Of a stretch of 64,000 nt of DNA, positions 32,533 through 63,522 are shown in pieces. The notes under the pieces are model-generated. The model did not search any database and was not told the DNA's origin. It saw nothing but the letters and a program-made list of their open reading frames with translations. The stretch is from Sphingobium sp. HWE2-09 (GTDB lineage: Bacteria > Pseudomonadota > Alphaproteobacteria > Sphingomonadales > Sphingomonadaceae). The position numbers and the translations under genes are program-made. Position 1 is the first letter of the stretch. Each line of letters begins with the position of its first letter. The stretch lies in the NCBI RefSeq assembly GCF_035989265.1, contig NZ_JAYKZX010000001.1, forward strand, positions 1,009,001-1,073,000, in the 5' to 3' direction.

Positions 32533-33575
32533 ATAGCGGTTTCAACGTCGAAGCGGGCGACAAACTCTACATTCAGGACGTTACCCTGCGCGACGGGATG
32601 CACGCCATCCGCCATATGTACGGCATCGATCATGTCGCCGCGATCGCCAAGGCGCTGGACGACGCCGGTGTCGACGCGATCGAGGTCGCCCATGGCGATG
32701 GCCTGAACGGCGCCAGCTTCAACTATGGCTTTGGCGCGCATACCGACTGGGAATGGCTGGAGGCGGTCGCCGCAGTGCTGACCAAATCGGTGCTGACCAC
32801 GCTGATTCTGCCCGGCGTCGGCACGGTCGATGAACTGCGCCGCGCCTATGAAATCGGCGTGCGCTCGGTCCGCGTCGCGACGCACTGCACCGAAGCCGAC
32901 GTGTCGAAACAGCATATCGGCATCGCCCGCGACCTGGGCATGGACGTGTCGGGCTTCCTGATGATGAGCCACATGATCGAGCCGGAACTGCTCGCCAAAC
33001 AGGCGCTGCTGATGGAAAGCTATGGCGCGCAATGCGTCTATGTCACCGACAGCGGCGGCGCGCTCGACATGGATGGCGTCCGCGCCCGGTTCGAAGCCTA
33101 TGACCGCGTGCTCAAGCCCGAAACCCAGCGCGGCATGCACGCGCATCACAATCTCTCGCTCGGCACCGCCAATTCGATCGTCGCGGCGCAATGCGGCGCG
33201 GTACGGATCGACGCATCGCTGACCGGCATGGGCGCAGGCGCGGGCAATGCCCCGCTCGAAGTGTTTATCGCTGCCGCAGACCGCAAGGGCTGGAACCATG
33301 GCTGCGACGTCAATGCGTTGATGGATGCGGCCGAAGATCTCGTCCGCCCGCTGCAGGTCCGCCCGGTCCGGGTCGATCGCGAAACGCTCGCACTGGGCTA
33401 TGCCGGCGTCTATTCCAGCTTCCTGCTCCACGCGGAAAAGGCGGCCCAGACCTACGATCTCGACACCCGCACCATCCTGGTCGAACTGGGCCGTCGCAAG
33501 ATGGTCGGCGGTCAGGAGGATATGATCGTGGACGTCGCGCTCGACATGGTAAAGGCCCGCGAAGCCGCCGTCTGA
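32529..33575 (+). CDS. hsaF: 4-hydroxy-2-oxoacid aldolase (HsaF/TesG)
   Basis: A 348-residue DmpG/MhpE-type metal-dependent aldolase. The N-terminal [13 protein letters not shown] carries Arg21, Asp22 and His25, and the metal-binding HAHHN motif is near residue 205. The C-terminal domain binds the HsaG dehydrogenase. It cleaves 4-hydroxy-2-oxohexanoate to pyruvate and propionaldehyde. It is the last gene before a hairpin. Confidence 0.93.
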
Positions 33576-38523: not shown

Positions 38524-39168
38524 TCACCAACCGGCGCGGGCCAGCAGGAACAGGTCGACGATCCGTCGAGCGACCCCTTCCAACTCGATATCGGTCATGG
38601 TCCGGGCCGCGCCTTCCTGCAATTGCCATCCGGTCATGGCCGACATGAACAGCTTCGCGATCATCGCCGGATCGCGCACCGGCATATCCTCCAGTCGCGC
38701 CGCCTCGGCGATGTCCAGGGCGATCTTCTCGACGAAAGGGCGCGTGCCGCTTTCATACATGGCCAAAGACAGTTCGGGAAACCGCTCGCGCGTGGCGATC
38801 AGCAGGCGTTGAAAGGCATGCACCTCCGGATGGGACAGCGTCCGGGCGATCAATATGCCATGGTGCAGCAATCGTTCGCGCAGGCTATGCCCTTCGGCGG
38901 GGTCGTGCCATTCGGCCATCTGCGCCCATTGGGCGACCCGGTCCTGAATGACGGCCCGAAACAGATCGCTCTTGGCCGCATAGCGCGCATAAAGCGTCGC
39001 CTTCGACACGCCTGCTGCCGCGGCGATCGTTTCCATCGCTGTCGCGTCATAGCCTTCTTCCAGGAAAAAGCGGCGCGCGGCCGTCAGGATCGCGCGGTCG
39101 ATCGCGGCCATCTGCTTGGCGTCCGGTCGGCCGCGGCGCGGTTTATAGGCGGTCAGGCTCTGGGTCAT
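38524..39168 (-). CDS. TetR-family transcriptional regulator
   Basis: A 214-residue TetR/AcrR regulator with the N-terminal HTH AMETIAAAAGVSKATLYARY and a helical ligand-binding domain. I placed the start at 39168 (MTQSLTAYKPRRGRPD); a continuous frame upstream runs into the AEC transporter and is spurious. It is a candidate local repressor; steroid regulators KstR and KstR2 belong to the same family, but the operator in this window (TACGCA) does not look like theirs. Confidence 0.9.
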   Translation of the reverse strand: MTQSLTAYKPRRGRPDAKQMAAIDRAILTAARRFFLEEGYDATAMETIAAAAGVSKATLYARYAAKSDLFRAVIQDRVAQWAQMAEWHDPAEGHSLRERLLHHGILIARTLSHPEVHAFQRLLIATRERFPELSLAMYESGTRPFVEKIALDIAEAARLEDMPVRDPAMIAKLFMSAMTGWQLQEGAARTMTDIELEGVARRIVDLFLLARAGW

Positions 39169-48096: not shown

Positions 48097-49179
48097 ATGC
48101 TCGACCGTTCGCAACGCCGGACTTTGTCCGACATCCTCCAGCCCGTATCGGCGCCCCGTCAGCTGGATAATATCTTTACCGAGGATCAGCGCCGCCGCCT
48201 GCTCGATGTCGTCCACGATCAGGGCGAATGGAAACTGATCATCGCCCAGCATTTCGCCAATGCCGAAGAATTGATCGCCACCTTCGCAGGCGGGTTCCCC
48301 GAGGGGTTCGAGCCGACGCTCGACATGTTCCTGACGCCTACGTTCCGTGGCTTCTACGCCAATTATTCGACTGCGCTCTATCCGGAAGTGCATGACGTCT
48401 TCTACAATCAGACGTTCATCGACTATGCCAAATCCTACTGGAACGCGGACTATGCCAAGCCGCAGATGATGTTGTTCAACATCAATGGTCCCTGCGGCAA
48501 CAATGATCCGGGCCATCTGGATTCGCCCAGCTTCCGCGGTATCCGCTACGAAAATTCGCCGACCTGGCTCTGCTCGATCATGGGGCGTTCGGGCTTGTTT
48601 CAGGATTATCTGATCAAGATGGCGCAGGTCATCACCTGGTTTAGCAATGATCCCGCCAGCGGCTTTACCTATTGGCCCAAGGGGCCGTTGGAAAAGCCCG
48701 AACGGCTCGCCTCGCCCATCTATAACCGTGGGGTTCTCGTCCAGAATGAGATGATGGTGCATCGGGGCGAAGCCAATGGTCCGCTCGAACGCCAGCGGCC
48801 TGCCGGTCTAGGCTTCGACAGTGTCTTCACGGGCGAGGCGGGCGATCGCGATGGGTGGATCGTCAAGACCGGCGATCAGGTCATCGAACGCTATCACACC
48901 GACGACCTGCGTTTCCTCGTCCACTGGTCGGCCGAAGTGTTCGAGGATTATGCCGAGTTGAAGAAGAATATGGACGGTTCGGACAATCTGACGCAGGATC
49001 GGGTTTTCGACACGCTGATCAAGGATGTGCGCGCGCGTGGCATCGCCATCGAAACGCCGACCAATCCGCTCCATGATCCGATCTTCATCAAGACTTTGAA
49101 CGACGCCTATGATTATGGTGGACCGGCCGAATATCCGGTCGAGGCGCCGCGTGGCGGCGTCTATGCCGACGCCGCTTGA
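48097..49179 (+). CDS. Putative Fe(II)/2-oxoglutarate-dependent oxygenase
   Basis: A 360-residue protein of no family that I can name with certainty. It carries the pattern of a 2-oxoglutarate oxygenase: His140-x-Asp142 (DPGHLDSPSF), a distal His222 (MMVHRGEA) 80 residues later, and Arg232 ten residues after it in the position that binds the 2-oxoglutarate carboxylate in PhyH-like enzymes. No signal peptide is visible. The ATG at 48097 follows AGGAG by 8 bases; an in-frame ATG at 48061 has no ribosome site. It is a single gene with a strong terminator, between the aldehyde dehydrogenase and the glycosidase locus. A hydroxylation or ring-opening step on the aglycone is an inference. Confidence 0.72.
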   Translation: MLDRSQRRTLSDILQPVSAPRQLDNIFTEDQRRRLLDVVHDQGEWKLIIAQHFANAEELIATFAGGFPEGFEPTLDMFLTPTFRGFYANYSTALYPEVHDVFYNQTFIDYAKSYWNADYAKPQMMLFNINGPCGNNDPGHLDSPSFRGIRYENSPTWLCSIMGRSGLFQDYLIKMAQVITWFSNDPASGFTYWPKGPLEKPERLASPIYNRGVLVQNEMMVHRGEANGPLERQRPAGLGFDSVFTGEAGDRDGWIVKTGDQVIERYHTDDLRFLVHWSAEVFEDYAELKKNMDGSDNLTQDRVFDTLIKDVRARGIAIETPTNPLHDPIFIKTLNDAYDYGGPAEYPVEAPRGGVYADAA

Positions 49180-49186
49180 TAGCTGA

Positions 49187-49225
49187 ATTTTGGCGGCGGC
49201 GGCGTGGAAACGCTGCCGCCAAAAT
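49187..49225. terminator. Rho-independent terminator
   Basis: The stem ATTTTGGCGGC / GCCGCCAAAAT (11 bases) encloses a 17-base loop, seven bases after the oxygenase stop. A/T runs at both ends allow termination on either strand. Confidence 0.85.
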
Positions 49226-49471
49226 CGATATGGCCGGGCGGTCTCCCGCGTAAGCCACTAGGTTTGGCGTTATCCGCGCGCGTACGATGTGGCCACCCGC
49301 GAGCGCCCGCAGTTCAGTCCCATTGTCATACGCGTAACATTAATAGCGCACCTCCCAAAATTAAATCGAACGGTATCGATCCAATATTGACAGCGCTGCC
49401 ATAGCTTGGGTAGGCGCGGTGAAACGGTGTGGCCGAGATCCGCTTAACGGGCCGGACCGATGGGGAGGATT
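49226..49471 (+). promoter_or_regulatory. Promoter region of the glycosidase locus with a TACGCG site
   Basis: No gene is apparent in these 246 bases. The overlapping palindrome TACGCGTA is at 49329-49336, about 136 bases before the receptor start. The motif matches those in front of the steroid operons. I could not place -35 and -10 hexamers with confidence. This is the only candidate promoter seen for the whole receptor-glycosidase series. Confidence 0.5.
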
Positions 49472-51787
49472 ATGAAGTATAATTTCGCGCGAGGTGCGTC
49501 TCTTTCTTTGGCTGCCGTGATGGCCGCCATGGGCATCCCGATGACCGCCAACGCTCAGGCCGCCGCGCCGCAGGGCGACGCGCTTGGCAGCGCGGAAATC
49601 ATCGTCACCGCTTCAAAACGTGCAGAGCGCCTTCAGGACGTGACCCGCACGGTTGACGTGGTGCAGGGTGAAACGCTGCAAAAGCTGAACCTCAAGACGT
49701 TCAGCGATATCCAGCAGCTTTCGCCGGGCCTGAGCCTGAATGCCAAGGAGCCTTCGAACAATTCGGTGACGTTGCGCGGTGTCGGCTTCGACCCGCAGTC
49801 CGCATCGTCGCCGACCGTCGATATCTATTTCAACGAAACGCCGTTGGACACCAACAGCGCGTTCCGCGGCCTGTATGACGTCGGCCAGATCGAAGTGCTG
49901 CGCGGGCCGCAGGGCACGCTGCGCGGTCGCACATCGCCATCCGGCGCTATCACCATCGCGACGCGGAAAGCCGACCTTGAAAAGGTGGACGGCTATTTTC
50001 AGCAGACCCTGACCACGCAGGAAGGCATCAACTCGCAGGGCGCCGTCAGCGTGCCGGTGATCCAGGATGTGCTGGCCGTGCGCGTTGCTGGTCTGTTCGA
50101 CCGTAATATCGGTCTGGGCGGCAAGAATATCAGTAACGGCATCGACGATAGCGACAAGACCGAAAGCGCCCGCATCAGCGTCGCGTTCCGGCCCGTGACC
50201 AACTTCACGGTGGATCTGACCTACCAGTATCTGAACAACCGCACCGTTTCGACACCGCTGCTCTTCACTCTGCCCGGTAACGTCACCGATCCGGTGCTGG
50301 AGCCGTCCGACCGCATCAGCAAAGCGACGGGCGCGGGGCATTATGACTATCGCGGCCATGTCGGCACGCTGTCCGCCAATTGGGATCTGGGCGCGGCGTC
50401 GATCAACTATATCGGGGGATATCAGGACATCGTTCAGGGCCGGGCAACCGATCTGGCCTATGGCGGCAGCGTGCGGGGCTATTCGCAGCCCCAGGCCTAC
50501 GATACCGCATCGACGCAGCTTTCGCAGGAATTGCGCCTGACCTCTCAGGGCAAGCGTATGTGGAATTATCTGTTCGGCGTCTATTATGAGGATTCCGACA
50601 GCAAAACCACGCTGACCCAGCGGCAGGTTCTGCCTTTCGGCTTCGTTGCCGGCGCCACCCCGCCGCTCGACATCGCCGTGCTGAACGTAGGCGTCTCGAT
50701 ACCATCAAAGGTGAAGACGTACGCGGCCTTCACCGATCACCGCTTCCAGCTGACCGAAAAACTTCAGTTGCAGGCGGGTCTGCGGTATCAGGAAACCCAT
50801 GTAAAGCGGGACTTCATTCAGACGCTGAGCGGTCCTTTGCTCGGCCCGGTGCCGATCGTGTCGTCCAACATCAGTCCCGAAAATCGCGATGTGACCTATC
50901 GTCAGCTGACGGGCGGGGCGAGCATCAAATATGATTTCAGTCGCGCGCTGACCGCCTATGCCAGCTACGGTCGCTCCTATCGTCCGGGCGGCGTGAACGC
51001 CGTGGCGGCGAAGCTTGATGAGGATATACTCGTCTTCCAGCCGGAAACCTCGAACAATTATGAGATCGGTTTGAAAGGCTCGCTCGCGGACCGACGGGTA
51101 ACCTTCGCCCTGGCCGTCTATCAGCAGGATTTCAAAAATTATCTGGCTTATACCGGGTCTTTCCTGTCGGTTTCGACCGGCAAGGATGGCGTGGCCGACA
51201 ATAATGCCGCGCTTACTTTCAACGCTGACGCTCAGGTCCGCGGTATCGAAGGCAGCATTTCCGGCAAGGTCACAGACAGGTTCCAGCTAGGCTTGAGCGC
51301 CACTTATAACGACGCCAAATTCAAGAATGCGCTGGCCCCCTGTAACGATTATAATGGCGATGGCGTCCCGGACTCGGTCGGCACGCCCAACGTGCCGATC
51401 GGCCAGAACGTCGCGCAATGCCGCCTGTCGGGTCGCTTGAGCGATCAGGCCAAATGGGGGGTGAGCGTGAACGCTGAATATAGCATCCCGGTCAGCGGCG
51501 ATCGCGAGTTGTTCGTACGTGGGCTGGCCAGCTACGTGCCCAAGCGCAGCGACCCGTTCCAGAACGTCTCGTATGACGATCTGCTCAACAACAGCGTCTT
51601 CATTGGCTTCCGTGGTCCGAACAACGCCTATGAATTTTCTGTATTCGGCAAGAACCTCGCCAATGTCGCTACTTTGACGACGCGCGGCGCAGCGCAGGTC
51701 GATTATAGCACCTTCAATTCGGGCTATGCGGTGGGTACGCCGGTTCGTCCCCGCGAGTTCGGCATTATCGGGCGGGTGAACTTCTGA
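49472..51787 (+). CDS. TonB-dependent receptor of the glycosidase locus
   Basis: A 771-residue outer-membrane receptor with a signal peptide (cleavage probably after ANAQA), the plug motif LRGPQGTLRGRTSPSG and a C-terminal barrel ending in ..GIIGRVNF. The start at 49472 follows GGGGAGG by a few bases. It is the first gene of the GH3-GH106-esterase-GH78-esterase series, and its stop overlaps the GH3 start by one base. By position it imports the glycoside, or an oligosaccharide or aglycone released from it. No SusD-like partner is present, as is normal outside Bacteroidetes. Confidence 0.93.
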   Translation: MKYNFARGASLSLAAVMAAMGIPMTANAQAAAPQGDALGSAEIIVTASKRAERLQDVTRTVDVVQGETLQKLNLKTFSDIQQLSPGLSLNAKEPSNNSVTLRGVGFDPQSASSPTVDIYFNETPLDTNSAFRGLYDVGQIEVLRGPQGTLRGRTSPSGAITIATRKADLEKVDGYFQQTLTTQEGINSQGAVSVPVIQDVLAVRVAGLFDRNIGLGGKNISNGIDDSDKTESARISVAFRPVTNFTVDLTYQYLNNRTVSTPLLFTLPGNVTDPVLEPSDRISKATGAGHYDYRGHVGTLSANWDLGAASINYIGGYQDIVQGRATDLAYGGSVRGYSQPQAYDTASTQLSQELRLTSQGKRMWNYLFGVYYEDSDSKTTLTQRQVLPFGFVAGATPPLDIAVLNVGVSIPSKVKTYAAFTDHRFQLTEKLQLQAGLRYQETHVKRDFIQTLSGPLLGPVPIVSSNISPENRDVTYRQLTGGASIKYDFSRALTAYASYGRSYRPGGVNAVAAKLDEDILVFQPETSNNYEIGLKGSLADRRVTFALAVYQQDFKNYLAYTGSFLSVSTGKDGVADNNAALTFNADAQVRGIEGSISGKVTDRFQLGLSATYNDAKFKNALAPCNDYNGDGVPDSVGTPNVPIGQNVAQCRLSGRLSDQAKWGVSVNAEYSIPVSGDRELFVRGLASYVPKRSDPFQNVSYDDLLNNSVFIGFRGPNNAYEFSVFGKNLANVATLTTRGAAQVDYSTFNSGYAVGTPVRPREFGIIGRVNF

Positions 51788-54003
51788 TGACCCATCTGCG
51801 CAAGCTGCTCGTCCTGTCGTTTCTGGCCAGTGTCGCATGTCCGGCATTGGCTCAGCAAAAGACGGCCGCCTCTCCGGACAAGCGCGCGGACGAGGCACTT
51901 GCGCAGATGACCGCAGACGAGAAGCTCCAGCTTCTCAGCGGTCCCATGACCCAATTTTTGGCCCCTGCCAAAAGGCCGGCCGGTGTACCGGTGAGCGCGG
52001 GATATATCGAGGGCATCCCTCGCCTCGGCGTGCCGATGCTGGTCGAAAGCGATGCCAGCCTGGGCGTGTCGAACCTGATGGACATGCGCAAGGGGGACGT
52101 GGCGACGGCGCTCCCCTCCGGCCTTGCGCTGGCGGCCAGCTGGGACGTGGGCATCGCCCACAAGGGCGGCGTGATGATCGGCAGCGAGGCGCGGGCCAAA
52201 GGCTTCAACGTCATGCTGGTGGGTGGCGTGAACCTGGTCCGCGACCCGCGCGCGGGCCGCAACTTCGAATATCTGGGCGAAGACCCTCTGCTGGCCGGTA
52301 CGCTGGTGGGTAGTCAGATCGATGGCGTCCAGTCCAACAACATCATCGGCACGATCAAGCATTTCGCGCTGAACAATCAGGAAACCGGCCGCAACGTCGC
52401 CTCGGTCGAAATGGACGAAGCAGCGATGCGCGAAAGCGACCTGCTGGCGTTCCAGATCGGTATCGAAAAGGGGAAACCCGGATCGGTGATGTGCGCCTAT
52501 AATCGGGTCGGGGGCATCTATGCCTGCGAACAGCCCTTCCTGCTCAACGACGTCTTACGCCGGGACTGGGGTTTCAAAGGCTTCGTAATGTCCGACTGGG
52601 GCGCTGTCCATTCGACCAAGGCCATTCTTGCGGGCCTTGATCAGCAGTCGGGCTATCAGCTGGACGGCAAGCGCTATTTCGGCCTGCTGATGCAGCAGGC
52701 GGTCGCCGATGGCAGCGTGCCGCAGGCCGCCGTCGATATGGCGGCGCGTCGGATTTTGCGCACAATCTATGCCCATGGCGTGGCGGATCATCCGCTGACC
52801 TCCGGCACGACCATCGACTATGATGCCGATGCAGCCGTCGCGCAGCGTGCGGCGGAAGCCGGCATCGTCCTGCTGCGCAATGAGGGCGGCATCCTGCCGC
52901 TGGCCGCCAGCGTGAAAACCATCGCGGTCATTGGCGGCAATGCCGATATCGGCGTGCCCAGCGGCGGCGGGTCCAGCCAGGTAGCCCCTGTTGGCGGCCT
53001 CAAGCGCGTCGTGCCAGGCGCCGCCAGCGGTCCCGCAGCCGCCTTCGCCAAGCGCGGCTATGGCGGGGTGGCGCCGCTCGCCGCATTGCAGGCCGAATTG
53101 CCGAATGCGCAAATTCGCTATCTGGACGGCAAAGATGTGACGGCGGCCATCGCCGCGGCAAAGGCCGCCGACATGGTCATCGTATTTGCTGAAAAATATG
53201 CCGCCGAAGCCATCGACCATGCCGACATTATGCTGGGCGAGGGGCAGGATGCGCTGATCGACGCCGTCGCCAGCGCCAATGGCAAAACGGTCGTCGTGCT
53301 GGAAACGGGCAATCCCGTGGTGATGCCATGGCTGAACAAAGTGCCAGCTGTCCTGTCTGCCTGGTATGGCGGCCAGCGCGGCGGGGTTGCGATCGCCCGG
53401 GTATTGACCGGCGCGGTCAATCCATCGGGGCATTTGCCCGTGACTTTCCCGGCTTCGGTCGATCAACTGCCCAACCCGGTGTTGCCGGGGTCCGATGCGC
53501 CAGCAGCCGACAAGGAGACGCGGGCCGTCTATGGCCTTCAAGCCGGGACCAAGCCGTTCGACATCCATTATCCCGAAGGGTCCGATGCGGGCTATCGCTG
53601 GTTCGATCGCAAAGGGTTGAAGCCGCTTTATCCGTTCGGCCATGGGCTTAGCTACACCAGCTTTGCCTATTCCGGACTGACGGTGAAGGGCGGCAAGGCG
53701 CTCACCATCAAGTTTAAAGTCACCAATAGCGGCAACCGCGCGGGCGCGGACGTGCCGCAGATTTATGTCGTGCGAGCGGGCAATGCCAAGCGGCTGATCG
53801 GCTGGGGCAAACCTGATCTGCAGCCTGGAGAAACCGGCGAAGTCAGCGTGACGGCAGACCCGCGGCTGCTGGCTGATTTCGATACAAAGGCACAACGGTG
53901 GGTGATAACACCGCAGCAGGTGCGGATCGAGGTTGCAACCTCTGCTACAGACCCGGTGCTGACCGCGACGACCCGCCTGAAGGCCCAGACCATAAAGCCC
54001 TGA
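51787..54003 (+). CDS. Exported GH3 beta-glucosidase
   Basis: A 738-residue glycoside hydrolase family 3 protein with a signal peptide (cleavage after ALAQ, residue 23). The (beta/alpha)8 domain contains Lys191-His192-Phe193 and the nucleophile Asp270 in the VMSDWGA motif. The alpha/beta sandwich domain follows (about 350-590), then a fibronectin-III-like domain (about 640-735, with LYPFGHGLSYTSF). Retaining beta-glucosidase, beta-xylosidase and related activities occur in GH3. Periplasmic removal of a beta-linked glucose is the natural role beside two rhamnosidases. Confidence 0.93.
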   Translation: MTHLRKLLVLSFLASVACPALAQQKTAASPDKRADEALAQMTADEKLQLLSGPMTQFLAPAKRPAGVPVSAGYIEGIPRLGVPMLVESDASLGVSNLMDMRKGDVATALPSGLALAASWDVGIAHKGGVMIGSEARAKGFNVMLVGGVNLVRDPRAGRNFEYLGEDPLLAGTLVGSQIDGVQSNNIIGTIKHFALNNQETGRNVASVEMDEAAMRESDLLAFQIGIEKGKPGSVMCAYNRVGGIYACEQPFLLNDVLRRDWGFKGFVMSDWGAVHSTKAILAGLDQQSGYQLDGKRYFGLLMQQAVADGSVPQAAVDMAARRILRTIYAHGVADHPLTSGTTIDYDADAAVAQRAAEAGIVLLRNEGGILPLAASVKTIAVIGGNADIGVPSGGGSSQVAPVGGLKRVVPGAASGPAAAFAKRGYGGVAPLAALQAELPNAQIRYLDGKDVTAAIAAAKAADMVIVFAEKYAAEAIDHADIMLGEGQDALIDAVASANGKTVVVLETGNPVVMPWLNKVPAVLSAWYGGQRGGVAIARVLTGAVNPSGHLPVTFPASVDQLPNPVLPGSDAPAADKETRAVYGLQAGTKPFDIHYPEGSDAGYRWFDRKGLKPLYPFGHGLSYTSFAYSGLTVKGGKALTIKFKVTNSGNRAGADVPQIYVVRAGNAKRLIGWGKPDLQPGETGEVSVTADPRLLADFDTKAQRWVITPQQVRIEVATSATDPVLTATTRLKAQTIKP

Positions 54004-54035
54004 ACGGCTAACGACATCAAGAGGACCATATCGTC

Positions 54036-56897
54036 ATGCCGCACCGCAGATTTTTGGGAGGGGCATGTGTCCTGGCCCTGTGCCTTTCGTCGCTCCCCGC
54101 CTTTGCCCAGACGCTGGAGCAGCGTTTCGAGGCGCCATCGAAAGAGGCGCGCCCGCGGGTACGCTGGTGGTGGCCGGGGGCGGCGGTAAGCGATGAGGAA
54201 CTGCGTCGCGAGGTGCAACTGCTGGACGCGCAGGGTTTTGGCGGCGCGGAAATCCAGTCCTTCACGCCCAATTTCGTGACTCTGACGCCCGAGGAGCGGG
54301 CCGTCGTCAACGATTATGCGGAACCCCGCTTTTTTAATTCCGTGCGCGTGGCGGGGGAGGCGGCCAAGGCGGCTGGCCTGACGCTCGATTATACGCTGGG
54401 GTCATCCTGGCCGTCGGGCGGCGGCTTTGCCATCACCCCTGAAAAGGCGTTCGTAGAACTGGCGATGGCGCGCACGGCGGTACAGGGCGGGCAGGCCGGG
54501 CCGATCAAGGTGGCAATCCCGTCGCGGACCAGGCGGCTGGGCGCGCTCAGTATGTTGGATGCACGGGTGAAAGACCCCGCGGTCGCCGATTGGGGCAAAC
54601 GGCTCGCCGACCGGGCGCATATCGTGGCCGTCGTCGCGGTAAAGGGGCAGGCGCCGCAACTGGTTCCGGTCGGACCGACGGCGGGCTTCAAACTCTATCC
54701 CTGGGACGATGTGGTGACCCCGGGCGCGCTCGACATGCAGAGCCGGGTCGTGCTGACCGACCGCTTGAAGGATGACGGCACGCTGGACTGGACCCCGCCG
54801 CCGGGCGACTGGCAGGTGTTCGTATATAAGCAATATGCCTCCGACGTTGGCGTGCTGGGCGCGGCGGGCAAGGGGCCGCAACTGATCCTGGATCATATGA
54901 AGCCCGAGGCATTTGCCGCCCATGCCGCGCGCGTCGGCGATCCGCTGGGGGACAAGCCGGTTGCGATGCGATCGACCTTCGTCGACAGCTTGGAACTGAT
55001 GCAGGATCTGCCGTGGAGCGACGCGTTCCTGGCGCAATTTCGCAAACGGCGCGGCTACGAGCTGACACCCTATCTGCCCCTCGTCCTCCAGCCCGGCTGG
55101 ATGCAGGCCTGGGGCGAACATTATTCACCGCCCTATTTCGATGCGTCGGGCAGCGACGTGGGCGACAGGGTGCGTGCCGACTATCGCCGGACCATATCCG
55201 ACATGATGTTCGACGGCTTCCTCAAGCCTTTCGTCGCGTGGAACCACAGTAAAGGGCTAAAGGCCAAGTTCCAGGCGCATGGCGGCGCGATCGATATCCT
55301 TCGCGGCTATGGCATCGCCGACATCCCCGAAACCGAGGATCTGGTGCATGATGGCGATCCCATCTTCATGCGCTTCGCCCGATCGGCGGCCAACCTTTAC
55401 GGTCGGCCGATCGTGTCGGCGGAAAGCCTGGTGTGGAAGAACCGCCCCTATGAAGTGACGCCGGACGAGATGCGCCGCCGGGTCGATCTGATCCTGTCGG
55501 GCGGGGTCAATTCGATGATCCTGCACGGGCTGGACTATCGCTTCCACGCGGAGGACTGGCCGGGCTGGCACGCCTTTTCGCCCAGCCCCTACGCGCTGGG
55601 TTTCAGCACGATGTTCACCGAAACCAACCCGATCTGGCCCGCGGTCAAGCCGCTCGCCGCCTATATCGGCCGGTTGCAAGCCGTGTTGCAGGCTGGGACA
55701 AACATTGTGCCGGTCGCCTATTTCTATGGCCAGACCGGCTATTATGTCGGCATCGAGGATAAGGGCGCTGGCGCCCAGGCGGCGGAAAAGGCGTTTCTGG
55801 CGGCGGGCTATGATTTCGACCGGATCAATCCCGATTCCATCGCCAATGCCAGCGTCGTGGCGAAGCAGCTGGTCGCCGCCAGCGGCTATCGCTATCCGGT
55901 GCTGGTGCTGCCCCCGCTGGAGGGCATTCGCGCTGAAACGGCCGAATCCATCGCCAAATATGCGAGGGCCGGCCTGCCGATATTCTTTGCCGATCGTGCG
56001 CCCGACAGAGACGAAGGGCTGGCCGATGCCGCACGTCGCGATGCGCGGGTCAGGCGCGCCATTGCGTCGGCCCTGCGCGCAGGCGCAAAGATCGTGCCCG
56101 CAGCGCAGGTGCCGCAAGCGCTGCGCAATGCAGGCATAACGGCAAATCTGACCTTCACCGGCCCGGATGCGTCGAACCTCTATTATGTCCAGCGCCTCCT
56201 GGATGGCCGTACCATCACCTTCCTCTATAATCGCGGCGATCAGGCCCGCGACGCCAGCCTCGTGCTGCCCGCGATGGGCGGCGTTGAGCGCTGGAATGCA
56301 ATGGGCGGGGGCAAAACGCCCGTCAGCACGAGTGCGGATGGCAGGGGCACGCGGATCACTCTGGCCCTCGCTCCGGGCGAAAGCGCACTGCTGGTCCAGG
56401 ATCCCAAAAGCCCGCTGGCAAGTATGACGACACCCCAACCCGTTGCCCGGCTCGCCATCCCCTCCGATGGCTGGTCGCTCAAGGTCGATGGCCATGTCCT
56501 GCGCAAGGCCTTCGCCAGTGATATGGGCACTGCCACCCTGAAAGACTGGCGCGACGTGCGCGGACTGGAGAATTTTTCGGGCACCGCCACCTATCGTCGG
56601 GCGATCACCGTTGATCCGGCCTGGCTGCAACAGGGCAAGCACGTCACGCTCGATCTGGGCGCCGTGCATGATATCGCAACGGTCAGCGTGAACGGCACGA
56701 CGCTGCCGACGTTGATCACCGCGCCTTTTCGTGTGGACCTGACCGGTACGCTCAAGCCCGGCGCCAACGATCTGGTCGTCACCATCGCCAATACGCCGCA
56801 AAATGCGATGCTGGATGCCAAGGCACCCGGCTTTAAGATGTTGAAGCCCGTGCCAGCGGGCTGGGTCGGGCCAGTGGCGCTGGAGGCTGGAAGATGA
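54036..56897 (+). CDS. Exported GH106-type alpha-L-rhamnosidase
   Basis: A 953-residue exported protein with a signal peptide (cleavage after AFAQ, residue 25). The opening RPRVRWWWPGAAVSDEEL (residue about 39) followed by GFGGAEIQSF is the hallmark of GH106 barrels. A C-terminal beta-sandwich with WRDVRGLENFSGTATYRR and LDLGAVHDIATVSVNGT resembles a galactose-binding/GH2-type accessory domain. GH106 was first described from Sphingomonas, and known members cleave alpha-1,2- and other alpha-L-rhamnosides. The catalytic acids cannot be assigned by eye. It overlaps the next gene by 4 bases. Confidence 0.9.
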   Translation: MPHRRFLGGACVLALCLSSLPAFAQTLEQRFEAPSKEARPRVRWWWPGAAVSDEELRREVQLLDAQGFGGAEIQSFTPNFVTLTPEERAVVNDYAEPRFFNSVRVAGEAAKAAGLTLDYTLGSSWPSGGGFAITPEKAFVELAMARTAVQGGQAGPIKVAIPSRTRRLGALSMLDARVKDPAVADWGKRLADRAHIVAVVAVKGQAPQLVPVGPTAGFKLYPWDDVVTPGALDMQSRVVLTDRLKDDGTLDWTPPPGDWQVFVYKQYASDVGVLGAAGKGPQLILDHMKPEAFAAHAARVGDPLGDKPVAMRSTFVDSLELMQDLPWSDAFLAQFRKRRGYELTPYLPLVLQPGWMQAWGEHYSPPYFDASGSDVGDRVRADYRRTISDMMFDGFLKPFVAWNHSKGLKAKFQAHGGAIDILRGYGIADIPETEDLVHDGDPIFMRFARSAANLYGRPIVSAESLVWKNRPYEVTPDEMRRRVDLILSGGVNSMILHGLDYRFHAEDWPGWHAFSPSPYALGFSTMFTETNPIWPAVKPLAAYIGRLQAVLQAGTNIVPVAYFYGQTGYYVGIEDKGAGAQAAEKAFLAAGYDFDRINPDSIANASVVAKQLVAASGYRYPVLVLPPLEGIRAETAESIAKYARAGLPIFFADRAPDRDEGLADAARRDARVRRAIASALRAGAKIVPAAQVPQALRNAGITANLTFTGPDASNLYYVQRLLDGRTITFLYNRGDQARDASLVLPAMGGVERWNAMGGGKTPVSTSADGRGTRITLALAPGESALLVQDPKSPLASMTTPQPVARLAIPSDGWSLKVDGHVLRKAFASDMGTATLKDWRDVRGLENFSGTATYRRAITVDPAWLQQGKHVTLDLGAVHDIATVSVNGTTLPTLITAPFRVDLTGTLKPGANDLVVTIANTPQNAMLDAKAPGFKMLKPVPAGWVGPVALEAGR

Positions 56898-57919
56898 TCG
56901 CGCGGAAGGCTGTTCTTGCGATTGCGGCCGGTGCGGTTCTGGCCCTGTCCGGCGCGGTGCAGGGCGCAAGCGACGATCTGTCCTATGTGAACCCGGAACT
57001 GCGGCAGGTCGCCCGCGGCATAGCCCGTGCGCAGGCAGCGGCAGAAGGATCTCTCGCCCTGTCCCGGCCCCCGGCATCTTTCCCGCTGCTTCCGTCGGGG
57101 ATCGTGGAACGCCAGGTTCCGGGCATGGCGGGGCAGCCGCCCGTCACCGTCTATATTGTCGATCCGGGACAACCCGGCGCGGCGCGGCGCGGCGCCATCC
57201 TGTTCATCCACGGCGGCGGCTTCATCGCAGGGGACGCCCGCGAATCGCTGCGGATGCTCCAGGGGATGGCCACGCGGCTCGATTGTGTAATCGTCAGCGT
57301 GCAATATCGGATCGCACCGGCAACCCGCTTCCCCGGATCGCTTGAAGACAATTACGCGGCCCTGAAATGGCTGCATGATGATGCCGCGACGCTGGGTGTC
57401 GATCCCGCAAGAATCGCGGTCGTGGGCGAAAGCGCTGGTGGCGGTCATGCCGCCATGCTGACCATCGCCGCCAGGGACAGGGGCGAAATCCCCATCGCCT
57501 TTCAGGCGCTGATCTATCCGATGCTGGACGATCGAACCGGGTCGAGCCGCCCGGTTATCCCAACGATCGGCACGCTGGTCTGGCGGCCCGCCGACAATCG
57601 CAAGGGATGGAGCGCGCTTCTGGGCCAGCCAGCAGGACAAAGGCGCGTGCCGAACGGATCGGTGCCCGCCCGTGTGGCCGACCTGTCGCGCCTGCCGCCG
57701 ACCTGGATCGGGGTTGGATCGATCGACCTGTTCGCGCAGGAAGATATCGACTTTGCCGGACGCCTGGTAGGGGCTGGCGTGCCGACCGAATTGCTGGTCG
57801 TCCCCGGCGCATTTCACGGCTTTCAGATGATCATGCCCAAGGCCGCGATATCCCAACAATTTAATGGCGCGCTGGAGGCTGCCTTGGCCCGCGCACTGTC
57901 CCCGGAGAAGAAGCCATGA
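56894..57919 (+). CDS. Exported HSL-type esterase
   Basis: A 341-residue alpha/beta-hydrolase with a signal peptide (about 25 residues). It has the oxyanion motif HGGGFIAG, nucleophile in GESAGGG, acid in SIDLFAQED and His in GAFHGF. Its YPMLDDRTG and RRVPNGSVPARVADLSRLPP segments resemble the cytoplasmic esterase at 35323-36267. It lies between the GH106 and GH78 genes with ATGA overlaps on both sides, so it is made with them. Removal of acyl groups from the sugar chain, which block glycosidases, is a likely role. Confidence 0.9.
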   Translation: MIARKAVLAIAAGAVLALSGAVQGASDDLSYVNPELRQVARGIARAQAAAEGSLALSRPPASFPLLPSGIVERQVPGMAGQPPVTVYIVDPGQPGAARRGAILFIHGGGFIAGDARESLRMLQGMATRLDCVIVSVQYRIAPATRFPGSLEDNYAALKWLHDDAATLGVDPARIAVVGESAGGGHAAMLTIAARDRGEIPIAFQALIYPMLDDRTGSSRPVIPTIGTLVWRPADNRKGWSALLGQPAGQRRVPNGSVPARVADLSRLPPTWIGVGSIDLFAQEDIDFAGRLVGAGVPTELLVVPGAFHGFQMIMPKAAISQQFNGALEAALARALSPEKKP

Positions 57920-60360
57920 CCCTTCGCGCTACGTTTGTCGCTGGTGTCGCGGCCATAATGGCCAGTCAGCCCGCCCTAGCGCAGGACGGTCCGGCGCAGG
58001 GATGGATTAGTCAGGCGCAGGCAGGGCAGCAGGCCAAGCCGATCGTGCTGCATTTCCGCCGTATGGTCGATCTGCCTGCAAAGCCGGGTCGCTATCCGGT
58101 GCGGGTCACGGCGGACAACCGATTTATCCTTTACGTCAATGGCGCGCGGGTCGCATCCGGCCCCTCGACTGGCGATATCGCGCATTGGCGGGAATCGACG
58201 ATCGACATTGCCCCCTATCTCAAGCGCGGACGCAATGTCGTCGCAGCGGTGGTATGGGACGGGGTCAAACCGCTCAAACTGCCGCCCAATGCTACGCCTG
58301 ATCAGATGACGGCCGCGCAGGGTGCAGCATTGTTCAGCAACACAGCGCCATTGTTCCAGCAGAATGTCGCCACGGGCTTTCGCCTGATCGGGGAAGGCGA
58401 TGCTGCCGCCATTTCGACCGACCGCCCCGGCTGGCGCGTCAAGGCCGATGCGGGGCATGGTTTCCGCAATGGCTGGGCGCAGACCAAGCGCTGGTATTAT
58501 GTCGCAGGCAATCCGGAAGTGATCGACGCGGCCAAGGCCGATTTCGACTGGACCGGCGTTCAGGAAAAGGGCGACGGCTGGCAGGATGCGGTGCCAGCGC
58601 CCGATGCGGCCAAGCGCACGCTCGTCGCCGATCGGCTGCCGCCGCAACGTTATGACGCGACATCCCCTGGCAAGGTGGTGCGCAGCGATCTTGTCGTCGG
58701 ACAGGGGTTCCCCGCGCGCCCCATTACCATCCCCGCCAACAGCAAGGCGACCCTGCTGATCCAGCGCGACGCGATGGTATCGGCCTATCCGCAACTCGAC
58801 ATATCGGGGGGCGCGGGCGCGACGATCAAGATGACTTGGTCGGAAGCGCTGTACGACAAGGATTATAAGAAGGGCGACCGTAACCTGATCGAGGATCGCA
58901 AGCCTTTTGGCCCATCCGATCTGTTCACCGCCGATGGCGCGGCCCGCACGTTCGAACCGCTATGGTGGCGAACATGGCGTTACGCCGAAATTGCGGTGGA
59001 AACGAAGGACCAGCCGCTGACCCTCAAGGCGCTGCGGGCCTATGAAACCGGCTATCCCTTTGCCCAGGTCGGCCGTTTCGACAGCGACGATCCGGACCTC
59101 AAGCGCATTTTCGATATCGGCTGGCGCACCGCAAAGATCGACGCGCACGAAACCTATATGGACACTGCCTTTTGGGAACAGCTGCAATATGCAGGCGACA
59201 CCCGCCTGCAGATGCTGATCTCCTACGCCGTGTCGGGCGACGCGCGACTGGCCGAACAGGCGATCGACGCCTTTGCCGGATCGCACGAAGATGGCGGTCT
59301 GATGGAAGGCGCCTATCCCACGCGCGGCCACAACGTCATCGCGCCCTTTGCGCTATTGTGGGTCGGCATGCTGGACGACTGGCGCATGGCGCAGCGTGAT
59401 CCAACCCCGATCGTACGCAACATCGCCCGGATGCGGGAGGTGATCGACTGGTTCGCCAAATATCGCCAACCTAGTGGATTGCTGGGCAAGAACCCGCAAT
59501 GGAACTTCATCGACTGGGTGGGACAACCCGCCACCGATCGGGACCAGTTCCCCTCTTACAGCCAATCCAACGAAAGCTGCCTCGTCAGCGTCAGCTGGCT
59601 GGGCGCACTGCAGCAGGGCGCTGCGATCGAGCGCGCTTTGGGCGACAAGGCGCAGGGCGACCGCTATGCACAGCAGGCCGATGCCTTGAAGCAAGCCATA
59701 CGCGCCCGCTGCTGGGTTCCCGCGCGCGGCCTGTTTGCGGACAATCCCGATGGCGACAGGTTCAGCCAGCATATGAATGCGTTGGCGATCCTGTACGATG
59801 TGGCTGACAAGGATGAGGCGCCCGCCATTCTCGACAGGATCGTCGCGCCGGGCAAGGGCATCAGCGCGCCGGAAGGGATTTCGACCACCAGCTATTATTT
59901 CGCCTGGTATCTGGTGCGCGCCTATCTCCATGCCGGGCTGGCGGATCGGTATCTGGGCCTGCTTCAGACCTGGCGCGACCTGCTGAAACTGAACTACACG
60001 ACCTGGCCGGAAGAACGCGACGATGCGGGGCAGGCGGGCAAAGGCAGCTCGACCCGGTCGGATAGCCACGCATGGAGCGCGCACCCGACGCCCGATCTGC
60101 TGGGTATCGTCGCTGGCATCCAGTCTTCCGCGCCCGGCTATGCGCGCCTGCGCGTCGCGCCTGCCCTTGGTACGCTCAAGCGGGTCGAGGCGACGGCCGC
60201 GACACCCTATGGTCCAGTGAGCGTAAGCTACCGTATCAAGGGCCAAACTCTGTCGGCTGATATCACGCGACCAAAGGATCTGCCCGGCGATTTCGTCTGG
60301 GCGGGTAAATCCTATCCGCTGACGGGCGCGCGTACGCGTCTGACCGTGCCGACACGCTAA
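57916..60360 (+). CDS. Exported GH78-type alpha-L-rhamnosidase
   Basis: An 814-residue exported protein with a signal peptide (cleavage after ALAQ). Beta-sandwich domains at the N-terminus (LYVNGARVASGP, AEIAVETKDQPL) are followed by an (alpha/alpha)6 barrel. ETYMDTAFWEQLQYAGDTR near residue 411 and RSDSHAWSAHPT near residue 715 correspond to the GH78 active-site regions, and a C-terminal beta domain closes the protein. The family hydrolyses terminal alpha-L-rhamnose by inversion. With GH106 it provides two rhamnosidases, perhaps one for each linkage of a branched rhamnose-containing chain. Confidence 0.9.
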   Translation: MTLRATFVAGVAAIMASQPALAQDGPAQGWISQAQAGQQAKPIVLHFRRMVDLPAKPGRYPVRVTADNRFILYVNGARVASGPSTGDIAHWRESTIDIAPYLKRGRNVVAAVVWDGVKPLKLPPNATPDQMTAAQGAALFSNTAPLFQQNVATGFRLIGEGDAAAISTDRPGWRVKADAGHGFRNGWAQTKRWYYVAGNPEVIDAAKADFDWTGVQEKGDGWQDAVPAPDAAKRTLVADRLPPQRYDATSPGKVVRSDLVVGQGFPARPITIPANSKATLLIQRDAMVSAYPQLDISGGAGATIKMTWSEALYDKDYKKGDRNLIEDRKPFGPSDLFTADGAARTFEPLWWRTWRYAEIAVETKDQPLTLKALRAYETGYPFAQVGRFDSDDPDLKRIFDIGWRTAKIDAHETYMDTAFWEQLQYAGDTRLQMLISYAVSGDARLAEQAIDAFAGSHEDGGLMEGAYPTRGHNVIAPFALLWVGMLDDWRMAQRDPTPIVRNIARMREVIDWFAKYRQPSGLLGKNPQWNFIDWVGQPATDRDQFPSYSQSNESCLVSVSWLGALQQGAAIERALGDKAQGDRYAQQADALKQAIRARCWVPARGLFADNPDGDRFSQHMNALAILYDVADKDEAPAILDRIVAPGKGISAPEGISTTSYYFAWYLVRAYLHAGLADRYLGLLQTWRDLLKLNYTTWPEERDDAGQAGKGSSTRSDSHAWSAHPTPDLLGIVAGIQSSAPGYARLRVAPALGTLKRVEATAATPYGPVSVSYRIKGQTLSADITRPKDLPGDFVWAGKSYPLTGARTRLTVPTR

Positions 60361-60377
60361 GATGGGGGAGGGGATAT

Positions 60378-61445
60378 ATGCCAAAGCCGTTTCGAATACG
60401 GAAGATCGCAGGGATCGCCCTCTCCATAGTGGCGATCCCTGCCCTGGCGCAATCGACGCCCAATCCGATCGAAGCGGACGGCACCGTCAATGTCCCCGGT
60501 TATCGCTTGCCGCCTTCGGTCTATCTGAGCGAGGAGGCGCGGAAATCGCTTCCGCGTCGCCCTCTCGATGCAAACGACATGCTGACCCAGCTGATCGAAA
60601 AGGGCCGCGTTCCAGCGGCGCGTCAGGGAATGGCGCGCGGTCTTGCCGGGCAGATCCGCAAAATGGCGCAGGATTATCATGTCAGCTATCGCGAAGTGAC
60701 GGTCGGTGGCGTGCACGGTTTTCTGGTCTCACCGGCCAGGCGCGGCAAGCGCAACAATATCCTGATAAACCTCCGGGGCGGCGGCTTCATCATGGCCAAT
60801 GCCGCGGCAGGCGGATTGCAGGAATTGATCCCACTCGCCAGCCGGACGGGCTTTGATATACTGACGACCGATTACCGGCAGGCGCCCGAGGCGGTCTTCC
60901 CCGCCGCCAGTGAGGATGTCGCCTCGGTCTATCGCGAACTGCTCAAGACCCATAAGGCGTCGCAGATCGGCATATTCGGCAGTTCCGCCGGCGGCCTGTT
61001 GACCGCCCAAGCGATCGCCTGGTTCCAGCATGTGAAGTTGCCCGCGCCGGGTGCTGCCGGAATCTTCTGCGCATCGGCGGATGCACGATGGGCAGGGGAT
61101 AGCTGGTATTCGTTCAAGCCGATGCAGGGTCTGACGGCGCCAGCCACGCTGGATGAACGTTTCTATTATGGCGACCATGATCTGTTAGACCCGCTGATGT
61201 CGCCGATGATGTCGCAGGACGTGCTGCGGTTTTTCCCGGCGACCCTGTTGCTGACCTCGACACGCGCAGGAGAGGTCAGTGCGGCCGTCAACACGCATCG
61301 CGAGTTGATCAAGGCGAAGGTCGATGCCGATCTTCATGTCTGGGACGGGTTGGACCATTGTTTCTTCGGCAATCACGCCCTGCCCGAAGCGCGCGAGGCA
61401 TTGGACGTCATGACCGATTTCTTCGTCCGCACACTGCGCCGATAA
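60378..61445 (+). CDS. Exported alpha/beta-hydrolase with altered catalytic motifs
   Basis: A 355-residue alpha/beta-hydrolase-3-type protein with a signal peptide (cleavage after ALAQ). The nucleophile motif GSSAGG and the terminal DHCFFGN (His) are present. The usual HGGG oxyanion motif reads RGGGF, and the acid position of the usual GTRD/STRD pattern reads STRAGE, so the standard Asp is not in place. It may still work as an esterase with a Glu acid, or be altered in substrate use. It is 17 bases after GH78 and ends the series, with no clear hairpin before the convergent SDR gene. Confidence 0.82.
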   Translation: MPKPFRIRKIAGIALSIVAIPALAQSTPNPIEADGTVNVPGYRLPPSVYLSEEARKSLPRRPLDANDMLTQLIEKGRVPAARQGMARGLAGQIRKMAQDYHVSYREVTVGGVHGFLVSPARRGKRNNILINLRGGGFIMANAAAGGLQELIPLASRTGFDILTTDYRQAPEAVFPAASEDVASVYRELLKTHKASQIGIFGSSAGGLLTAQAIAWFQHVKLPAPGAAGIFCASADARWAGDSWYSFKPMQGLTAPATLDERFYYGDHDLLDPLMSPMMSQDVLRFFPATLLLTSTRAGEVSAAVNTHRELIKAKVDADLHVWDGLDHCFFGNHALPEAREALDVMTDFFVRTLRR

Positions 61446-61470: not shown

Positions 61471-62892
61471 TCAGCCGGCCGCGTCGCTCCAAACCTGCGC
61501 GAAGAAGGGATTGCGCCGCGCTTCGGCATCGTAGTGGGCCGGATCGACCATCGTCGTGGGGCACCAGTGGCCGCCCTTCATATAGAGGTTGGGCGTCATC
61601 GAAAAGCGTTGCCCTGACGCCGACTGCCATTCCACCGGCACATGCAGCCCTTCGAAGGCGGTCGCCAGGCATTTGCCGCCGCGATATTCCGCCGCCCCGC
61701 GCAGGTCGTCCAGCCGCCATGCGTCGGGCGTGCGGCTTTCGTCATAGCCATGGTTCAGCAGGCTGGGTTCACGCGATGGCTGGGCAAAGATGAAGTCATC
61801 CCAGTTGCGTGGAATGGCTTCCCACGCGGCACGCGACCCGAAATAATGGGCGATCTTCTCCTGCTCGTCTTGCGCCATCCAATACAGCGATCCACCCGGC
61901 GCTTTTGCAAGCCCCTCGATCCGTTTGCTCACCATGCCCGGCGCATAGCGGGATACGGCACGGGCGATCCAGGGCATGTGGCGCGGAGCCTCGGCGAAAT
62001 AGGCATCGAGCGACTGCTCTCGAAACGGCACCAGCGCCTCCAGACGGTCGGAATTGGCATACCATTGGCCATGGAAATTGCGGGTGGCAAACCAGTGTGG
62101 CTTCAGCGCCTTGCGATAGTTGGGCATGGATTGGGTCATGAACTCATGGTTCACGACCCGCGATGTCGCGCCGCCGCCGATGTTGTAGAAGCCGCGCCAG
62201 AACGCCTCTGGCACGCTATCGTCGCATACCGCTGCCATCAGCCGACCGCTGTCGTTCGCCGTCGACCACTCGAAAACGCCATTGATCGGATTGTGAAACA
62301 TGATCGGATCGAACATTTTCCACATGTCGAAATGGGCCATGCCGCTCTGGCGCAGCGACACCCAGTGGCGGATGCCGCTTTCCGCCACGATCGCTTCGGC
62401 CTGGGTCTTGGTGACGGCATAATGGTCGTAGGCGCTGATCTTGATGGGATCGCCCGTGCGGCCCCAATGTACCGGGGCGTTGCGGCTGCCGGTTTCGGCT
62501 ACAGTGCCGATATAGATCAAGCGGGTCTGTTCCGGGTCGCCCACAGTCTTGATGGCATTCACGATATTGCGTGCGCCGCCGACATTGACATGGGTAACGA
62601 CATCTTTTGGCATATTGTCGGCAAGGGGGGACACCAGCCCACCGACATGAAGGACGACGTCGGCACCGCGCACGCCGTCTTCGATCGATGCCGCGTCGGT
62701 CAGGTCGCCCCAAACGATCTCCGCCAGGCCGCGTGTCTCGACATCGCGCACGACCGGATGGCTCTTTTCCTGCGGCCGGACGAGGATACGCAGGCGCAAG
62801 CTGTCGCTCTTGGCCGCGATACGCTTGATGGCTTCACGGCCCATATTTCCGGTCGCGCCGGTGAGAAAAATAATCTTGCGGCTATCGGACAC
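61471..62892 (-). CDS. Extended SDR (NAD-dependent epimerase/3-beta-HSD-like)
   Basis: A 473-residue extended SDR with the N-terminal TGATGNMG motif (residues 11-18), and Tyr158 and Lys162 of the YxxxK pair (DHYAVTK). The C-terminal substrate-binding part is long, about 160 residues more than the core. The superfamily includes sugar epimerases, dihydroflavonol reductases and 3-beta-hydroxysteroid dehydrogenases, so a role in aglycone or sugar conversion is possible. It is transcribed towards the glycosidase locus and alone. Confidence 0.85.
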   Translation of the reverse strand: MSDSRKIIFLTGATGNMGREAIKRIAAKSDSLRLRILVRPQEKSHPVVRDVETRGLAEIVWGDLTDAASIEDGVRGADVVLHVGGLVSPLADNMPKDVVTHVNVGGARNIVNAIKTVGDPEQTRLIYIGTVAETGSRNAPVHWGRTGDPIKISAYDHYAVTKTQAEAIVAESGIRHWVSLRQSGMAHFDMWKMFDPIMFHNPINGVFEWSTANDSGRLMAAVCDDSVPEAFWRGFYNIGGGATSRVVNHEFMTQSMPNYRKALKPHWFATRNFHGQWYANSDRLEALVPFREQSLDAYFAEAPRHMPWIARAVSRYAPGMVSKRIEGLAKAPGGSLYWMAQDEQEKIAHYFGSRAAWEAIPRNWDDFIFAQPSREPSLLNHGYDESRTPDAWRLDDLRGAAEYRGGKCLATAFEGLHVPVEWQSASGQRFSMTPNLYMKGGHWCPTTMVDPAHYDAEARRNPFFAQVWSDAAG

Positions 62893-63041
62893 TGGCCTCT
62901 CCCTTTGAAAAATTATTAGAACAGTTGCGTTCGAATAACAAGGGTTTCGGCTGCTCGCCCGGCAAGGCCGCTATCGGCGTCACATCCGGCGATCCATAGT
63001 CCGGGAACCTGCCACAAGGCGCATCTATAGTCAGACGTCTT

Positions 63042-63076: not shown

Positions 63077-63406
63077 TCATTTTTTCGGCATCTTGGCGAA
63101 GTCCGCGTCGATCGCTGCCAGGCGCGCATCGGTGACGTCATCAGGCGAATATTGCTGAATTGCCTTGAGCGTCATGCCGCGAGCCATGTCGATCTGGTCG
63201 TTGGTCGTCATGCCGGGGATATGCTTTTCAATGATCGCCTTGGCGGCCGGATTATCCAGCAATGTGCCGAGATCCGTGTCCGCAGTTGTGAACGCCTGCG
63301 GGGCGGCCGCCGCCGCCGCGGGGGGTGTAGGCGCCGCAGGCGTCTGTGCAAAGGCAGACGTGGCGGCAGTCAGCGCAACCAATGCACCGATCAGAATCTT
63401 ACGCAT
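63077..63406 (-). CDS. Small exported Pro/Ala-rich protein
   Basis: A 109-residue protein with a signal peptide (MRKILIGALVALTAATSAFAQ). A Pro/Ala-rich linker (residues about 22-38) precedes a helical domain with NPAAKAIIEKHIPG, MARGMTLKAIQQYSPDDVT and LAAIDADFAKM. I have seen similar short domains in sphingomonad proteins near esterases or SDRs, but no function is known to me. The start at 63406 is preferred to 63415, because the GAGG ribosome site abuts the earlier ATG. Confidence 0.75.
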   Translation of the reverse strand: MRKILIGALVALTAATSAFAQTPAAPTPPAAAAAAPQAFTTADTDLGTLLDNPAAKAIIEKHIPGMTTNDQIDMARGMTLKAIQQYSPDDVTDARLAAIDADFAKMPKK

Positions 63407-63522
63407 CCAAAACATCCTCTTCCATTGATTCTAATCTATCTATCGAACGTTTGTGTTCTAATATCAAGATGCTCGCCCATATGGCGGTGACGGCTATTCA
63501 GGGCCATGAGCATAGAACTACC

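Follow-up and report, generated by a model that had tools for sequence, protein, structure and literature searches.

A probable steroidal-saponin utilisation locus of the Sphingobium sp. RC1 type, with a conserved inverted-repeat operator, in Sphingobium sp. HWE2-09

In a 64,000-nucleotide stretch of the genome of Sphingobium sp. HWE2-09 (the window; contig NZ_JAYKZX010000001.1, positions 1,009,001 to 1,073,000), the genes at 49472-61445 very probably form a steroidal-saponin utilisation locus of the type known from Sphingobium sp. RC1. The window sits in contig C1 (1,156,749 bp) of a 4.44 Mb genome in three contigs. Open reading frames and Pfam matches place on the forward strand a TonB-dependent receptor (49472..51787; barrel 8e-32, plug 5e-12; likely start at 49472 behind GGGGAGG), a GH3 glycosidase (51787..54003), a GH106 alpha-L-rhamnosidase (54036..56897; 4.6e-63), an alpha/beta-hydrolase matching Abhydrolase_3 (esterase A, 56894..57919), a GH78 alpha-L-rhamnosidase (57916..60360) and a second alpha/beta-hydrolase (esterase B, 60378..61445). 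Successive reading frames overlap by 1 or 4 bp or leave gaps of 17 and 32 bp, and the N-termini of the proteins resemble Sec signal peptides as judged by eye. A first-pass annotation of this DNA had described a receptor followed by coupled, exported GH3, GH106 and GH78 enzymes and two esterases, all of which were found; its range, 48097..61445, stands for the unit from 49472 onward, while 48097-49179 encodes a separate protein and not the receptor. The conserved locus extends beyond 61445 to an epimerase-like gene (61471..62892) and a gene for a small exported protein (63077..63415), both on the reverse strand.

A cluster of this kind is already known. Nakayasu et al. 2023 (PMC10653915) describe SpGH3-1, SpGH106-1 and SpGH78-1 of Sphingobium sp. 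RC1 (tags _03247, _03248 and _03250), which are close neighbours on a plasmid, carry predicted signal peptides and are raised in expression by alpha-tomatine. The tag numbering fits the order GH3, GH106, one gene, GH78, as in the window. The activities and the induction were established by others for the RC1 enzymes: in the passages of that paper on dioscin in vitro, GH106 probably removes the alpha-1,2-rhamnose and GH78 probably the alpha-1,4-rhamnose, after which GH3 removes glucose. According to the paper, each of its own isolates that degrade tomatine has the gene set, three public genomes have it with gaps, and S. herbicidovorans MH converts alpha-tomatine to intermediates. The existence of this orthologous cluster bears out the first-pass proposal that two rhamnosidases and a beta-glucosidase would serve to remove a branched rhamnose-rhamnose-glucose chain from a steroid aglycone; its accompanying remark, that it knew of no description of the GH106/GH78/GH3 set for the degradation of steroidal glycoalkaloids, is overtaken by the same publication.

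Position and identity together indicate that the window enzymes are orthologues of SpGH3-1, SpGH106-1 and SpGH78-1. Compared with TomTYG74 (a strain named in PMC10653915), TomTYG64 (of the same name series) and S. herbicidovorans, identities are ~76% for GH3, 68-69% for GH106, 65-67% for esterase A and 74-75% for GH78, and the paralogues within the genome are far lower, at 53% for the next GH3 and 27% for the other GH106. TomTYG74 and TomTYG64 share the order GH3-GH106-esterase-GH78-(other)-epimerase, and S. herbicidovorans MH has GH3-GH106-esterase-GH78-epimerase. Esterase A holds the same position between GH106 and GH78 in the relatives, at 63-68% identity. The catalytic residues are also retained, with the residue numbers of the reference GH106, GH78 and GH3 enzymes taken as we presume them to be: in GH106, E320 and E463 stand opposite E506 and E644 of 6q2f; in GH78, the first pair, D416 and E421, stands opposite D567 and E572 of 2okx, whereas the other catalytic glutamate is off by one in the alignment; and GH3 keeps the SDW nucleophile motif when aligned with solved beta-glucosidases.

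The likeness to the RC1 cluster covers the three exported glycosidases, their order and the single gene between GH106 and GH78, and it extends to a large secondary replicon and to steroid-ring genes in the genome; with the isolate series of the RC1 paper the locus also shares the epimerase-like neighbour. The window differs from RC1-type clusters in showing 65-80% identity over the shared genes, in having its own receptor at the head of the operon, in the extra esterase B, in a TetR gene that is not adjacent, and in having no GH39 and hence not the full tomatine set (GH3-4, GH39-1, GH3-3). Esterase B has a best plasmid match of 53% and occurs in one of the 12 GH106 places fetched from other genomes (G047, 62%), where it lies between GH3 and GH106. 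The locus on a plasmid of Sphingomonas parapaucimobilis YK209 (L025) resembles the window in its order receptor-GH3-GH106-GH78-epimerase with the same operator ahead, but it has no esterase within the unit and adjoins an L-rhamnonate dehydratase gene and other sugar-acid genes behind an operator-like site. Glutamicibacter halophytocola is an actinomycete. Its strain S2 carries a trisaccharide locus for alpha-chaconine and alpha-solanine (PMC9597252), which is alike in being a rhamnosidase, beta-glucosidase and beta-galactosidase cluster that strips steroidal glycoalkaloids; its families are given as GH2, GH3 and GH78 in the passages of PMC10653915, which name no GH106 for it.

Relatives of the cluster are found on plasmids and in a sample of 198 genomes, our own included. 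A tblastn search of PLSDB found GH106 relatives on 47 plasmid records, from which five loci were fetched; among the 20 records listed, identity is 60-80% in 14, which belong to S. herbicidovorans, eleven Tom strains, S. parapaucimobilis and Novosphingobium P6W. In the genome sample, 11 of the 198 have GH106 (counted at E up to 1e-100). Twelve of the 13 GH106 places outside our genome were fetched, a copy at a contig edge in G046 being left out; six show GH3-GH106-esterase A-GH78, one receptor-GH3-GH106, one GH106 with GH78 and one GH106 alone, and the other three belong to a second type of GH106, which in two cases is accompanied by an epimerase-like gene of 55% identity.

The association with steroid catabolism is apparent both in the window and across the sample. 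The first-pass annotation had placed the locus near a steroid-ring pathway, and ring genes do lie ~20 kb away on the same contig. The forward-strand genes at 28066..33575 encode HsaA-, HsaD- and HsaB-like proteins, a hydratase, an acylating aldehyde dehydrogenase and an aldolase of ring A/B meta-cleavage, and an HsaC-like extradiol dioxygenase is encoded on the reverse strand at 26935..27849. The NCBIfam matches of HsaA, HsaD, HsaB, the hydratase and HsaC (1e-86) are under the curated cut-offs, and those of the aldehyde dehydrogenase and aldolase are above them. Together these ring A/B genes (26.9-33.6 kb) lie ~16-23 kb upstream of the unit, and acyl-CoA enzymes of ring C/D type follow further upstream at 11.9-25.3 kb. 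HsaA occurs in 19 of the 198 genomes, three of them outside the genus; one of the 19 (G043) has a 43% relative only, and it is present in 10 of the 11 GH106 genomes. The corresponding Fisher p-values (5e-11 over the 198 genomes; 3e-8 within an assumed 84 congeners) are too small because the genomes share ancestry.

A second line of evidence is regulatory. The upstream regions of the relatives have in common a repeat like AATCGnACGnnnnCGnnCnAAT, and a matrix was built from ten sites taken from other genomes only. The best score in the window, 28.2 bits, goes to the 22-bp inverted repeat AATCGAACGGTATCGATCCAAT at 49364..49385, ahead of the receptor-GH3-GH106 operon, and a -35-like TTGACA begins one base past it. 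The second and third sites lie before the epimerase-like gene (62915..62936, 21.5 bits) and the small-protein gene (63441..63462, 16.7 bits), in the same places as in relatives, and all four matrix sites, including the fourth-ranked one at 48032, are intergenic. In 40 Markov copies of the window the mean maximum was 14.5 bits and the highest 22.4 (one copy); therefore, only the 49364 site is singly beyond the null, and the others draw their support from position and conservation. Among five held-out genomes with a GH3-GH106 operon, four (our own, G072, G047 and G003) have the operator at the operon head at 26.7-31.0 bits, with 31.0 in G072, 30.6 in G047 and 26.7 in G003. The sites before the small-protein gene score 17.4, 18.7 and 19.8 bits in G072, G047 and G003, and those on the epimerase side 14.0 in G072 and 21.6 in G003, the G047 stretch being without an epimerase-like gene. 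In G083, also held out, a 20.2-bit site lies ~180 bp before GH106.

No site above 20 bits was seen in 1.9 million Markov positions, and four stretches of our genome (79,916 positions) reached at most 10.4 bits, although these had been chosen after a scan showing none above 11 there. Three other stretches of the genome have sites above 14 bits, two of which are explained by a TetR gene and small gene with a receptor and by a GH5 gene. The pattern GAAC-N6-GTTC is uninformative (33 genome sites, 26 for the reversed pattern). The first-pass annotation had also stated that the locus and the steroid-ring genes have an intergenic motif in common; here the best ungapped score was 11 as compared with shuffle maxima of 9-12 (10 trials), the best match to the hsaA upstream region being the 9-bp word CGATCCAAT, and this claim is not sustained. 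A real motif is present, but at the saponin genes and not at those of the ring pathway.

The probable partner of the operator is a TetR protein, as suggested by gene proximity and a near-identical recognition region. A TetR gene is divergent from GH3 in TomTYG74, S. herbicidovorans, Chol11, G072, G047, G003 and G010, and it adjoins the operon in three of the four operator-bearing held-out genomes. In our genome the orthologue lies at C1:958649-959293, ~100 kb off, with 64% identity to TomTYG74 and 75% to G072 and G047, and its recognition region GVSKGTLYVRYPSKEALF is nearly identical to GVSKGTLYARYPSKEALF in TomTYG74. The surrounding stretch (C1:945001-965000, L041) places it near a copy of the small-protein gene, a TonB receptor and a 3-ketosteroid-delta4-5alpha-dehydrogenase-like gene (4at0, 333 bits). 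Directly behind the repeat, TTGAC is found in the window, TomTYG74 and S. herbicidovorans, which fits repression. We found no description of the TetR protein or the operator in the literature listings consulted, and a word search of the main text of PMC10653915 gave no hit for TetR, operon, TonB or esterase. A TetR paralogue in the window itself (38527..39165, reverse strand) is 54% identical to the TetR beside GH3 in TomTYG74 and is probably not the cognate regulator; as a candidate it was put second because its recognition region differs from those of the cluster TetRs, with which the C1:958 kb protein agrees almost fully.

Taken together, these data suggest how the locus may work. The TonB-dependent receptor would bind, and possibly import, the saponin, either whole or partly trimmed. 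Either in the periplasm or on the cell surface, GH106 would remove the alpha-1,2-rhamnose, GH78 the alpha-1,4-rhamnose and GH3 the sugar attached directly to the steroid, and the esterases would probably take off acyl groups. The freed sapogenin would undergo oxidation, in which the epimerase-like dehydrogenase may act first, and then enter the nearby 9,10-seco ring pathway. A TetR repressor at the 22-bp operator abutting the -35 box would probably silence the operon, the epimerase-like gene and the small-protein gene until a saponin, sapogenin or sugar releases repression.

Several observations weigh against assigning the locus to steroidal saponins in this manner. The orthology of the window GH3, GH106 and GH78 to the RC1 enzymes is drawn through other isolates and gene order and not through RC1 sequences, and specificity can shift at 68-76% identity; the activities of the HWE2-09 proteins are predictions. 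In the passages of PMC10653915, alpha-solanine is a substrate of RC1 GH106 and GH3 and not of GH78, neither RC1 rhamnosidase acts on alpha-tomatine, and alpha-chaconine is not mentioned among the substrates tried. The search for GH39 gave no match in our genome (the control search was positive in 2 of 14 genomes), and so alpha-tomatine may not be fully stripped; GCF_009720145.1, one of the three public genomes, likewise has no GH39 according to the paper. The receptor is 69-71% identical to those of matching operons in Sphingomonas parapaucimobilis, Candidatus S. excrementigallinarum and Sphingobium Sx8-8, but just 33-36% to receptors near the Tom clusters, with which it is not orthologous. 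Sx8-8 (G048), the fifth held-out genome with an operon (receptor-GH3-GH106), has no operator site, and the same genome has GH106 without HsaA. No site above 14 bits was found at the three loci of the second GH106 type. A genome search with a degenerate version of the 22-bp consensus, one mismatch allowed, returned 5 hits on the forward and 4 on the reverse strand, compared with 4 and 4 for the reversed control; the sites are therefore set apart only by the matrix in combination with position and conservation. The TetR gene of our genome is not beside the operon. Finally, of the nine other genomes with both genes, two (G066, G010) have GH106 and HsaA within 59-65 kb of each other, two have them at distances of 292 and 909 kb, and five carry them on separate contigs; the close neighbourhood is therefore not conserved.

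We weighed three other substrates. A flavonoid-glycoside locus, whose enzymes would strip rutinosides and neohesperidosides, is improbable. The linkages overlap, neohesperidosides having an alpha-1,2 linkage, and GH78 enzymes acting on flavonoids appear in literature listings. A flavonoid-active GH106 from Novosphingobium PP1Y is cited in PMC10653915, whose passages are silent on flavonoids as substrates for the RC1 enzymes. However, a separate GH106 on contig C3 matches 6q2f with 1342 bits, as opposed to 177 for the window GH106. We take 6q2f to be the PP1Y enzyme, and with such an enzyme on C3, a mainly flavonoid function is less likely for the window GH106, which groups by identity with the saponin-cluster proteins; the co-occurrence, moreover, is with steroid catabolism. 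More improbable again is a role in the use of rhamnose-containing polysaccharides, whether pectin or bacterial polymers. Polysaccharide-utilisation loci usually combine a receptor with exported enzymes, and GH106 and GH78 are also found in rhamnogalacturonan loci, but the unit has exo-acting families only, with no lyase or endo-enzyme, and its 68-76% relatives are saponin clusters that co-occur with steroid genes. To be doubted just as strongly is a locus for triterpenoid saponins of the ginsenoside or oleanane kind: PMC10653915 cites GH3 and GH78 ginsenosidases, and its passages make no mention of tests on dammarane saponins, but soyasaponin Bb and glycyrrhizin were untouched by RC1 cells and six RC1 enzymes there, and steroid-ring genes lie near the window unit.

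The epimerase-like protein (61471..62892) is a conserved, convergently encoded partner, with 78-80% identity in TomTYG64, TomTYG74 and S. herbicidovorans and 73-74% in the S. parapaucimobilis type. Its gene occurs on 15 plasmid records at 71-81%, namely all 14 with a 60-80% GH106 and a second TomMM15 plasmid, and in five of the six full clusters, the exception being G047, which has none within the stretch. The N-terminal third matches the Pfam family 3Beta_HSD and extended short-chain dehydrogenases/reductases, and the rest has no PDB match by sequence; we infer that the protein may be a sapogenin dehydrogenase. By gene number it is neither Sp3betaHSD1 nor Sp3betaHSD2 of PMC10653915, the RC1 tags of these (_03057, _02694) lying away from the cluster. 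The small exported protein (63077..63415) is 63-74% identical to six relatives and has no Pfam match, and its gene adjoins the TetR gene in several relatives.

The operator also marks a gene on another contig. A secreted GH5 with a GH5_C domain (C3:536072-538074; L046:10072-12074) has a 26.6-bit site ahead of it, and its nearest PDB matches are endoglycoceramidases. Its C-terminal part includes a segment resembling the small exported protein; such segments number two in the GH5 copy of G023, one in that of G010 and none in that of G003, and the GH5 of G083 has only a 15-residue, chance-level match elsewhere. Relatives of the C3 GH5 (E up to 1e-60) occur in five of the 198 genomes, all among the 11 with GH106 (Fisher 2e-7, a value too small because the genomes are related), and the operator before GH5 in these five is strong in two (26.6 and 22.6 bits), weak in one (11.7) and absent in two. 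It is conceivable, although we would put it at clearly below even chances, that an undescribed TetR regulon for steroidal saponins extends across replicons, with this locus at its core, and includes, besides the known glycosidases, an endoglycoceramidase-like GH5, an epimerase-like sapogenin dehydrogenase and a small exported module that has similar stretches fused to the GH5. The GH5 may then cut the whole sugar chain off the steroid, and if the regulon exists, these three would be new steps of saponin catabolism.

While the kind of cluster is known, it gains testable additions in the operator, the epimerase-like gene and the GH5. The window provides another layout of a cluster that strips saponins, with steroid-ring genes nearby, and the operator is a concrete handle on the saponin response of root-associated sphingomonads and on its missing members; both the conserved epimerase-like gene and the GH5 behind an operator site may encode undescribed steps.

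Other features were seen in and around the window. An operator-like site of 16.6 bits at C1:1008674-1008695 (L044:8674), ~300 bp ahead of the window start, is the one site above 14 bits in the three further stretches that is left unexplained. An L-rhamnonate dehydratase at C1:943378-944553 of our genome is 91% identical to the one beside the S. parapaucimobilis locus (L025 5196-6431). The operator precedes rhmD in S. parapaucimobilis and Candidatus Sphingomonas excrementigallinarum, and no site above 14 bits precedes it in our genome.

The forward-strand gene at 48097..49179 encodes an uncharacterised 360-residue protein whose membership of the locus is uncertain. It has no Pfam, NCBIfam or PDB sequence match, and it has 594 homologues, of which 120 were listed; in 20 aligned sequences H140-x-D142 and H222 are invariant. 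Its model has a predicted local distance difference test score (pLDDT) of 63, and many of the weak fold matches are to 2-oxoglutarate oxygenases (best E 2.8e-3, none below 0.001), which, given the low-confidence model and weak E values, are only a hint. The very conserved family may be a new family of Fe(II)/2-oxoglutarate dioxygenases. The site at 48032, upstream of this gene, scores 13.8 bits and falls within the shuffle range. As a member of the locus the protein was rejected, since among the compared fetched loci only that of Novosphingobium P6W carries the gene. On the P6W plasmid (L026 14685-32850), GH106, GH3, a receptor and the 48097-type gene are scattered among IS66 elements, as if a cluster had been broken up.

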